Source: Piscicola geometra
Lineage: Eukaryota > Annelida > Clitellata > Hirudinida > Piscicolidae
NCBI GenBank assembly: GCA_943735955.1
Contig: OX030958.1
Coordinates: 9,782,126 to 9,846,125 of the forward strand
Reading direction: 5' to 3'
DNA: 64,000 nt
Position 1 is the first letter of the stretch. Every line of letters begins with the position of its first letter. The notes below the pieces were generated by a model, which saw only the letters and a program-made list of their open reading frames with translations, made no database searches and was not told where the DNA came from. The translations under genes and the position numbers were made by a program. Of the stretch, positions 2,820-34,458 are shown in pieces.

Positions 2820-2871
2820 ATGGTGCCTAAAGTAATCTGTGCCCTCTTATTCGTTGTTTGCTTGCAGACAG
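2820..2871 (+). CDS. Gene C exon 1, signal peptide
   Basis: Codes MVPKVICALLFVVCLQT plus the first base of a Gly codon, followed by the donor gtcag. It has a hydrophobic core and a basic residue near the start, typical of a secretory signal. The same exon, with only a few base changes, starts genes A (38082) and B (48020). Confidence 0.8.
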
Positions 2872-32800: not shown

Positions 32801-34458
32801 AGTATTCAATTTTTTTAAAAGTAATAAAAATTATTGAAATTTTATCAGAATTTTTCATAAAAGTAATTCGCCTTTGAAAGAAAAAATCAATCCATAAATT
32901 TAAAAAAAACGCAAATGTCACATCAATCGTTTTCTAAATGCTCATTTGATGAAATCATCCAAAACAGATGAAAAAACATCGACCATCCTCGAGACTGGCG
33001 TGAGCAAAGGTATTCACTCATTTACATTTATAGAGCTGTTCCATGATTAAAAATTTCAATCGCCGTTAATCGAACGAGCAAAAATTTTAATCGAAAGTTA
33101 ATCGTGTTTGAACTCAATGTTTTTACTATAATTTGCATTAGTAAGAAATAGTATTCAATTTTTTTAAAAGTAATAGAAATTATTGAAATTTTAGCAGAAT
33201 TTTTCACAAAAGTAATTCGCTTCTGAAAGAAAAAAATCAATACATAAATTTTGAAAAAAACGTAAATGTCACATCATTCGTTTTCTAAATGCTTATTTGA
33301 TGAAATCATCCAAAAAAGATGAAAAAACATCGACCATCCTCGAGACTGGCGAGAGCAAAGCTATTCACTCATTTACATTTATAGCGCTGTTCCATGAATA
33401 AAAATTTCAATCGCCGTTAATCGAACGAGCAAAAATTTTAATCGAAAGTTAATCGTGTTTGAACTCAATATTTTTACTATAATTTGCATTAGTTTTTTTA
33501 AAACTAATTGAAATTATTGAAATTCTATCAGAATTTTTTATAAATGTAATTTGCCTTATTTAAATTTAATGATATAATTGTGAATCGATCGTTTTCTAAG
33601 CGTTGACGATCTTAATGATTATGAATCGATTGTGTATGAAATCATCCAAAACAGATAAAAAAATAACGACAACAACAGCAACGACAACAACAGCAACAAC
33701 TACGACAACACCAACAAAAACACCAAAGTCAACAACAACAACAACAATGACAACCACCACGACCGAAGGGAGCACTGGTATTAACACATTTACATTTATA
33801 GAGCTTTTCCACGATTAAAAATTTCAATCGCCGTTAATCGAACGAGCAAAAATTTCAATCGAAAGTTAATCGTGTTTGAACTCAATGTTTTTAGTATACT
33901 TTGCAATAGTATGAAATAGTATTTAAATTTTTTTAATTGAAAAGAAATTATTGAAATTGTATTAGAATTTTTTCATAAAAGTAATTCGCTTTTGAAAGAA
34001 AAAAACGCAAATATCAAATCGATCGTTTACTAAAGGCTCATTGTATGAAATCATCCAAAACAGATGTACCATCAACATCGACAACCCCCATGCTGGAAGA
34101 GAGCACTGGTATTGACTCATTTACATTTATAAAGTTAAGCGTTGATGATATTAATGATTATAATTGTGAACCAATATTTTTCTGTATGCTCATTGTATGA
34201 AACCATCCAAAACAGTTGAGCCAGAGACACCAACCACCAAGCCCGCAAAGGGCAAAGGAGGTCACTCATTTACATTTATAAGTTTAAGCTTTAACGACCA
34301 TTTTTATAATCTTTGTGAATCAATCTTTTATTAAATGTTTGAATGCATTTCACAAATGGACGTTTATTTTCACAGGTGCACCAGCAGGCGTCATCGCATC
34401 CACCAACCTCTTCCTCTTCACGTTCTGCTTGGTCCTCTACCAGCTCACTTGGAAATAA
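2820..34458 (+). CDS. Gene C: secreted/anchored stalk protein with an 85-fold micro-exon array (span of gene)
   Basis: Proposed gene with exons 2820-2871, 3362-3388, 85 exons of 42 nt (first 3987-4028, last 33319-33360), 33655-33777, 34064-34108, 34216-34260 and 34376-34458. All introns are phase 1, so any internal exon can be skipped or repeated without a frameshift. The summed coding length is 3945 nt (1314 residues). The product would be a signal peptide, a very long Thr/Ser/Glu/Lys stalk without cysteines in the repeats, a Thr-rich mucin-like block and a C-terminal hydrophobic anchor. It lacks the Cys-containing ectodomain exons of genes A and B. I do not recognise the family. The layout resembles micro-exon genes of schistosomes, but that is analogy. 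The main doubt is whether the array units are really spliced in. Confidence 0.55.
3362..3388 (+). CDS. Gene C exon 2 (27 nt)
   Basis: It follows the acceptor ccttcaaacag, which is shared with genes A and B, and ends at the donor gtttgtat, also shared. It is phase 1-1 and codes VVLADASLT (first codon split). Genes A and B have a 45-nt exon here with different sequence, so only the splice sites are conserved. Confidence is moderate. Confidence 0.5.
3483..3917. repeat. (GT)n microsatellite
   Basis: About 435 bp of GT dinucleotides with scattered interruptions, lying in the intron between exon 2 of gene C and the first array unit. Confidence 0.98.
3945..7438. repeat. Five-unit block duplicated in tandem (1747 bp)
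   Basis: The more diverged first part of the array repeats with a 1747-bp period: 3945-5691 matches 5692-7438, including diagnostic variants such as 'gactggtgagagc' and 'gactggcgggagc'. A further four-unit step (1398 bp) follows. Confidence 0.75.
3987..33360 (+). CDS. Array of 85 micro-exons, 42 nt each (span)
   Basis: Each exon codes 14 residues of the type DEKTSTILETGESK, the Asp codon being split over the junction. Visible variants are T/K at residue 4, I/N at 7, L/P at 8, E/V at 9 and E/V/G at 12. By eye none of the 85 copies has a stop or an indel inside the 42 nt, while the introns vary in length. Most copies are near-identical through recent amplification, so the openness is suggestive and not proof of coding. 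The last copy (33319-33360) is followed by ctattc in place of gtattc and has lost its donor. Confidence 0.5.
23946..33027. repeat. Thirteen-unit higher-order block duplicated (2 x 4541 bp)
   Basis: 23946-28486 and 28487-33027 match unit for unit with a constant offset of 4541 bp, sharing rare variants (for example the 'atgtaaaaaaaacgc' unit at 25561/30102 and the two short 'cgtaaatgtcacatcatt' units). Only a few bases differ. The middle of the array instead shows 3- and 4-unit periods (1047 and 1396 bp). Confidence 0.8.
33655..33777 (+). CDS. Gene C Thr-rich stalk exon
   Basis: A 123-nt phase 1-1 exon between ccaaaacag and gtattaac. It starts KKITTTTATTTT, passes through PTKTPKS and ends TEGST, with about 24 Thr in 41 residues. 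It looks like a mucin-type O-glycosylated block grown by expansion of ACA/ACG codons inside a unit homologous to the array exon. The flanking 33778-34063 is one diverged copy of the array intron. Confidence 0.6.
34064..34108 (+). CDS. Gene C stalk exon (45 nt)
   Basis: Phase 1-1, coding (D)VPSTSTTPMLEEST, with the same upstream and downstream flanks as the array exons. Rich in Ser, Thr and Pro. Confidence 0.6.
34216..34260 (+). CDS. Gene C stalk exon (45 nt)
   Basis: Phase 1-1, coding (V)EPETPTTKPAKGKG. An identical exon is found in gene B at 44763-44807 on the other strand. Confidence 0.6.
34376..34458 (+). CDS. Gene C terminal exon, hydrophobic anchor
   Basis: Acceptor ttttcacag, entry phase 1, codes GAPAGVI, then the hydrophobic ASTNLFLFTFCLVLYQL, then TWK and TAA. 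A small-residue stretch followed by about 17 hydrophobic residues at the very C-terminus fits either a GPI-attachment signal or a single membrane span with a three-residue tail. The gene B exon (44565-44647) is the same in sequence. Confidence 0.65.

Follow-up and report, generated by a model that had tools for sequence, protein, structure and literature searches.

Gene A (2820..34458, + strand) holds 85 tandem copies of a 42-nt exon-like segment, each inside its own unit of about 349 bp, between a signal-peptide exon and a hydrophobic tail exon. From its exon model and from comparison with its paralogues, we favor, with moderate confidence, a gene for a headless, mucin-like, membrane-anchored protein, whose length would be set by exon copy number and whose array would have grown by unequal exchange. 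As judged from the sequence, gene A is probably a mucin-like gene that functions now or did so recently. We give slightly less than even weight to a fuller proposal, in which the mRNA contains all or most of the 84 copies that have both splice sites. This design would have evolved independently of the schistosome mucins, in a different group of animals, and would lengthen a headless surface mucin by adding exons, its length differing between individuals and transcripts. The window analyzed is a stretch of 64,000 nucleotides (C4:9782126-9846125), and the genome searched is a 171-Mb assembly of 66 contigs.

Structure of the Exon Array

Tandem Repeats Finder (TRF) placed the array at 3918..33493 (+ strand), with a period of 349, 84.7 copies, and a 96% match. 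A direct scan gave 85 units of 348–351 bp with one 42-nt segment each, the first at 3987..4028 and the last at 33319..33360 (both + strand). The two methods agreed with the preliminary description, which had claimed 85 tandem 42-nt segments in units of this size, lying on the same strand between a signal exon and an anchor exon. Its account of the splice-site dinucleotides was also reproduced, as AG precedes 85/85 segments (as ACAG or AAAG) and GT follows 84/85. The 85th segment has CT at the position where the donor GT is expected, so it is probably skipped. The 84 complete units comprise 46 distinct sequences with a mean pairwise difference of 3.7%. A (GT)n microsatellite (3483..3917, + strand; TRF) directly abuts the array.

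Translation of the segments gives a 14-residue repeat in nine versions, the commonest of which is DEKTSTILETGVSK (34/85). One version arises solely through the junction with exon 2: the first 42-nt exon reads NEKTSTILETGESK after exon 2, and DEK... after another unit. No reading frame of at least 120 aa runs through the array on either strand, and only frames of the (GT)n microsatellite reach a few bases into its start.

The repetition of the array is far beyond chance. The AG...GT frame of the 42-nt segment alone is not, since the unit consensus holds five AG/GT-bounded, self-joinable open segments of 30–60 nt divisible by three on the + strand and three on the − strand, and the 42-nt segment is one of those five. 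It is an exon candidate because it is homologous to single-copy exons that have the same flanks.

Gene Model and Homology of the Segment Flanks

The six single-copy exons of gene A all lie on the + strand. The signal-peptide exon (2820..2871) ends in phase 1. Exon 2 (3362..3388; 27 nt, phase 1-1) has an acceptor flank common to the paralogues and a weak donor (U1 duplex −1.0). Behind the array lie a Thr-rich stalk exon of 123 nt (33655..33777), placed by the gene model and intron comparison, a 45-nt stalk exon of phase 1-1 (34064..34108), and the 45-nt stalk exon e10 (34216..34260), which is conserved across the family. The terminal exon (34376..34458) encodes a hydrophobic tail, GPI-like by eye, with the stop codon, and its sequence is 79–83/83 identical in paralogues C, D, E, F, and G.

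Joined with the 85 segments, these exons give 3945 nt in one frame, that is 1314 aa and a stop, which exactly reproduces the in-frame total given in the preliminary description, with the segments in phase 1-1. The six single-copy exons joined to each other are also open; without the array the gene is still in frame and encodes about 123 aa. Between its signal peptide and its hydrophobic tail, the full predicted product is a long chain in which Thr, Lys, Glu, and Ser are abundant. Such a composition suggests a mucin-like surface or secreted chain; the assignments of a signal peptide, GPI anchoring, and glycosylation were made by eye, and the latter two are putative modifications.

The unit flanks were compared with 11 stalk exons. 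Ten of these showed 15–19/20 identical nucleotides upstream and 16–22/22 downstream, and the eleventh, from paralogue G (G_s2), showed 17/19 and 21/22, respectively. In this comparison, which is partly circular because some stalk exons were found by these same flanks, e9 and e10 were reached through gene models too and not by flanks alone. After rows spanning two exons and chance matches had been set aside, the scan retained the stalk exons of members A to G, which are all of phase 1-1 with lengths of 39, 42, 45, 48, or 123 nt, all divisible by three. The earlier statement that the segment flanks resemble those of single-copy stalk exons in gene A and its paralogues is thus borne out.

Splice Sites and Sequence Variation in the Array

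Donor strength was scored as pairing with the U1 5′ end (kcal/mol). The array donors scored −5.7 kcal/mol in 70 units and −5.2 kcal/mol in 14 units. The three single-copy stalk donors of gene A scored −4.2 kcal/mol each, and the range for donors of C, D, and E was −8.1 to −1.2 kcal/mol. In the one unit examined for this purpose, no other GT in the intron was better than −1.8 kcal/mol. An internal GTGAGC is present in 52/85 units and scored −5.4 kcal/mol, nearly donor strength, and its use would break the frame. Two units have a stronger internal GT (−8.1 kcal/mol), which is in frame. On the acceptor side, AAG replaces CAG in 30/84 aligned units. The array acceptors have a poor pyrimidine tract, a feature that they share with the paralogue acceptors of e10, a conserved stalk exon.

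The variation among units was similar in exon and intron. Nucleotide diversity (pi) was 0.041 in the array exon vs 0.034 in the intron, and variable columns numbered 8/42 and 63/309, respectively. Nine distinct exon variants were seen, with 9.86 expected at the intron rate, and 3/9 of them were synonymous vs 27% expected. None of the diversity, the synonymous share, the stops, or the indels distinguished the exon from the intron, and purifying selection on the array exon was not detected by these measures. The preliminary description had stressed that the segments contain no stop or indel. This is true as an observation, with in-frame stops in 0/85 segments, but it is uninformative as evidence, as the chance of no stop among nine variants is 0.68 and 203/310 stretches of 42 columns along the unit alignment also have no gap.

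The lack of detectable purifying selection, the cryptic donors, the AAG acceptors, the poor pyrimidine tract, and the dead last donor all count against the preferred reading. Some of these points fit a different explanation, in which a dead or seldom used exon within an intron of gene A gave rise to a satellite. Splicing would then pass over most units, and the single-copy exons would encode a short Thr-rich protein of about 123 aa. We consider this explanation unlikely. It agrees with the like variation of exon and intron, with the strong internal cryptic donors in more than half of the units, and with the open frame that is left when the array is omitted. It does not agree well with the U1 pairing, which is better for the array donors than for the three stalk donors that gene A has in single copy. 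The nearly complete preservation of the AG and GT dinucleotides also speaks against it, although sequences this little diverged would be expected to have lost few of them.

Gene Family and Absence of the Head Domain in Gene A

Searches with the 3′ end of gene A, its exons, and a paralogue protein found a family of at least eight members (A–H), which share the signal exon, the stalk-exon flanks, and the tail exon and whose products would be secreted and probably GPI-anchored. Paralogue B (38082..41134, + strand) has the signal and head exons and one stalk exon, as seen by exon comparison. In the gene model of B, the terminal exon reads in a frame different from that of the other members, and therefore no hydrophobic tail is left. 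A 16-bp minisatellite, TAAATATGATAGATTC (36142-37242; 68.8 copies, 99% match; TRF), lies in the stretch that separates this paralogue from gene A. Gene models of paralogue C (44565..48020, − strand) and paralogue D, just beyond the window, are intact, with 11 exons and 831 nt each. In both, the layout is a signal peptide, a Cys-containing head (exons 3–6), two exons, two stalk exons, and a hydrophobic tail.

The other members lie elsewhere in the genome. The 11 exons of paralogue E (contig C12) join in frame to 828 nt, and its e9 is without a GT donor. Paralogue F (C12:3731790-3726957) has AA at the e3 acceptor and no GT donor at e9, and its signal exon was not found within the stretch fetched; this member is likely decaying. 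Paralogue G (C4:4157206-4166077) has a stalk exon measured at 46 nt, or 45 nt with the acceptor placed by eye against the 34064 exon, and the 45-nt exon is probably dead because its acceptor is AA. Paralogue H is located at C4:7994494-7998307. Exons of 15, 21, 39, 42, 45, 48, and 123 nt occur in the family. In the paralogues, the exons that encode the head are longer, and their lengths are not multiples of three.

The Cys-containing head exons of paralogue C (46636-45635, − strand) have homologues in B, D, E, and F. The paralogue C protein gave only PARM in Pfam (E 0.29, under the cut-off), and none of 253 candidate proteins matched it at E ≤ 1. By these searches, the head domain is an orphan. 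For exons 3–5 in five members (B–F), dN/dS was above 1 in 9/10 pairs. The departure from neutrality reached Fisher p < 0.05 in 3/10 pairs, which are not independent and come from a gapless alignment. With exon 6 added, dN/dS was 0.99–2.74. Diversifying selection on the head domain is possible on these ratios, and a family under such selection would suit surface proteins with a role in reproduction, immunity, or recognition.

No such head was found in gene A. A tblastn search with the e3–e5 head protein against 2872-34375 gave no match at E ≤ 10, and blastn of the head region against gene A gave only matches of at most 25 bases with E 0.02 or worse. In the genome search with the whole protein, e6 included, the tail exon was the only match listed in gene A. 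As the paralogue head exons are absent, a stalk would have nothing to carry in gene A, and the earlier reading of the array as a stalk is corrected on this point.

A missing head might be expected in a decaying gene. If gene A were a headless pseudogene, the array would be neutral repeat growth and the exon would be preserved only by its youth. The decay seen in other members (the terminal frame of B, the e3 acceptor of F, and the e9 donor of E) and the absence of constraint in the array would suit this explanation, yet we rate it as improbable. Outside the array, one part of gene A shows constraint in comparison with C: the signal exon is 52/52 identical to that of C (46–49/52 vs B, D, E, and G), while intron 1 has diverged (335/432 identical, 43 gaps). 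The tail exon is also 83/83 identical to that of C, but this identity says little because the adjoining intron (112/115) and the adjoining 3′ region (162/165) are nearly as similar. The open frame of the six joined single-copy exons and the 5′ flank of gene A, part of which is common to the paralogues, further argue against a pseudogene.

Origin and Growth of the Array

With up to two mismatches, the exon core matched the genome at 85 places, and 85/85 lie inside this array. Two flank motifs searched at 0–1 mismatch in the 171-Mb genome matched within this gene family in every case; reversed control patterns gave 11 and 9 matches at up to 2 and 3 mismatches. Matches to the motifs were ranked by mismatch number and the first 100 inspected, which takes in all those at 0–1 mismatch. 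These counts rule out a dispersed satellite as the identity of the array. It follows that the array is not a general satellite and that the exon of gene A itself multiplied. TRF of the fetched stretches of the other members (rows with a period of at least 25 and at least 2.5 copies) gave no second exon array with a period near 349. A 42-bp-period array upstream of gene E was considered as an exon array and rejected, as it is AT-rich and each of the six frames contains stops.

About 240 bp of the unit intron (4045..4290 in the first unit, approximate ends, + strand) belong to a dispersed repeat, which also occurs in many genomic places (39 of 743 candidates scored). The repeat, of about 240 bp or more, begins near TAGAGCTGTTCC. 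In 12 aligned loci of the dispersed repeat, it ends short of the 42-nt exon, inside the intron, which rules out an exon carried by a transposable element. The shared 240 bp is the one point in favor of taking the 349-bp unit for a transposable element or genome-wide satellite that resembles exons by chance, and this explanation is very improbable given where the repeat stops, the confinement of the exon core and of the flank motifs, and a family intron that lacks the repeat and keeps the same ends.

That family intron follows the 34064 exon, is 107 nt long, has the same ends as the array intron, and is without the dispersed repeat. The intron after the Thr-rich exon carries the repeat and is identical to the array intron at 256/285 aligned positions, and in paralogue G the repeat is present in a homologous intron. 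As the Thr-exon and G introns carry the repeat and the 34064 intron does not, the repeat was probably already in a stalk intron when the array began to form.

The longest internal copy in the array consists of 12 consecutive units (58–69), which match units 71–82 with at most one difference per unit. Shorter blocks of units recur at other distances within the array. Copies of multi-unit blocks are what would be expected from unequal exchange of several units at once.

The preferred reading of gene A, a headless mucin-like gene with a copy-number-dependent length, would then have the following history. An ordinary phase 1-1 stalk exon would have been multiplied after its intron had received the dispersed repeat. 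Similar neighboring introns could then mispair, and unequal exchange between near-identical exon–intron units would produce tandem copies, up to the present 85. Repeat number would follow genomic copy number, which may be polymorphic, and skipping of whole exons would always be frame-neutral. If gene A is transcribed and its units are included and spliced like the stalk exons of the paralogues, the product would be a headless surface protein rich in Ser/Thr and charge, of up to about 1300 aa, which would probably be GPI-anchored, may be glycosylated, and may act as a long surface coat.

Comparison with Known Exon Arrays

Titin and Dscam have comparable exon numbers in arrays, but the sequences of their exons differ. 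The kringle IV-2 array of human LPA consists of 5.6-kb units, 1–40 per allele, which encode folded kringle domains and are not microexons. It is a coding tandem copy-number array that produces protein isoforms of many lengths (PMC11462820, PMC6314250).

By published description, the closest array in kind is that of SmPoMuc in Schistosoma mansoni, where a 27-bp exon (9 aa) is repeated with its intron in tandem units of about 1 kb; the introns are more than 94% alike, and a gene has at most about 20 units (PMC2576457). SmPoMuc transcripts have from 1 to 100 repeats, and repeat number sets the length of the mucin (PMC2576457). Both genes have a signal exon followed by tandem units of a short symmetric exon with a highly similar intron, and gene A shows this layout with a signal exon, 85 units, a 42-nt phase 1-1 segment, and low divergence between units. 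Membership of a small multigene family and dinucleotide microsatellites are also common to the two, by the same account. The microsatellite of SmPoMuc is described as lying between units, whereas that of gene A is at one array end only. Thirteen further exons behind the repeats and an intronic hammerhead ribozyme are features that this source describes for SmPoMuc. In our window, which contains genes A, B, and C, no hammerhead or other RNA family matched Rfam at the gathering score, and no tRNAs were found.

In COX1, TGA reads as Trp, and ATA and AGA sit where table 5 gives Met and Ser. We take this COX1 to be unlike flatworm COX1. With an invertebrate code and a presumably non-flatworm COX1, descent of gene A from SmPoMuc seems unlikely.

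Other published genes share parts of this design. The schistosome MEGs are reported to encode secreted proteins with 10–20 very short exons, mostly multiples of three, and long introns (PMC10526429). By this description, they resemble gene A and its family in that a signal-peptide exon is followed by a series of short exons, most of them with lengths that are multiples of three, and they differ in that gene A has one exon in 85 copies. The same source cites Davis et al. 1988 for 81-base tandem exons (PMC10526429). Chicken BG genes have 21-nt repeat exons that encode seven-residue repeats, the number of which varies, and the variation is attributed to unequal crossing-over (PMC5043582). They differ from gene A, on that description, in that the repeats form a cytoplasmic coiled-coil tail and in a four-exon repeat present in one to three copies (PMC5043582). 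In the fungus Coccidioides, SOWgp is described with near-identical repeated exons and introns under concerted evolution by unequal crossing-over (PMC2576457).

The preliminary description had proposed one of the largest exon arrays known. This may hold for near-identical exons, of which the literature searched gave no larger array, but the principle is already known from SmPoMuc and other genes. If all or most of the units are indeed joined, few single messages would contain a longer run of near-identical exons than that of gene A. The genomic copy number is about four times that reported for schistosomes; with splicing of the units, exon-array mucin building as known from schistosomes would have arisen elsewhere too. 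The gene would also offer a natural test of the spliceosome on some 84 near-identical donor–acceptor pairs in a row, bearing on full joining vs skipping or exon repetition and on the avoidance of cryptic donors. In a family whose head shows signs of diversification, the length of a surface protein would depend directly on satellite-like DNA growth.

Other Features of the Window and Genome

The far part of the window contains a block of mobile-element fragments, flanked by a minisatellite of the GGACAAAATGTCAC type at 50937-51148 and 60451-60636 on opposite strands (TRF). In a LINE-like element (51981-54994), separate open stretches encode an endonuclease/phosphatase domain and a reverse transcriptase domain. 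The best protein matches of this element are unnamed, and the named ones among the 120 matches listed are mostly from fish. Two transposase fragments follow, a MULE fragment at 55317-55736 (− strand) and a DDE_Tnp_1_7 fragment at 57585-58214 (+ strand), which we take to be piggyBac-type. Outside the window, a generic 18S rRNA 5′ end, searched with its first 45 bases, gave recurrent matches at C1:60788-67620 and C2:15883037-15967629 (40 of 306 candidates scored), often with a spacing of about 745 bp, as if they were part of a satellite.
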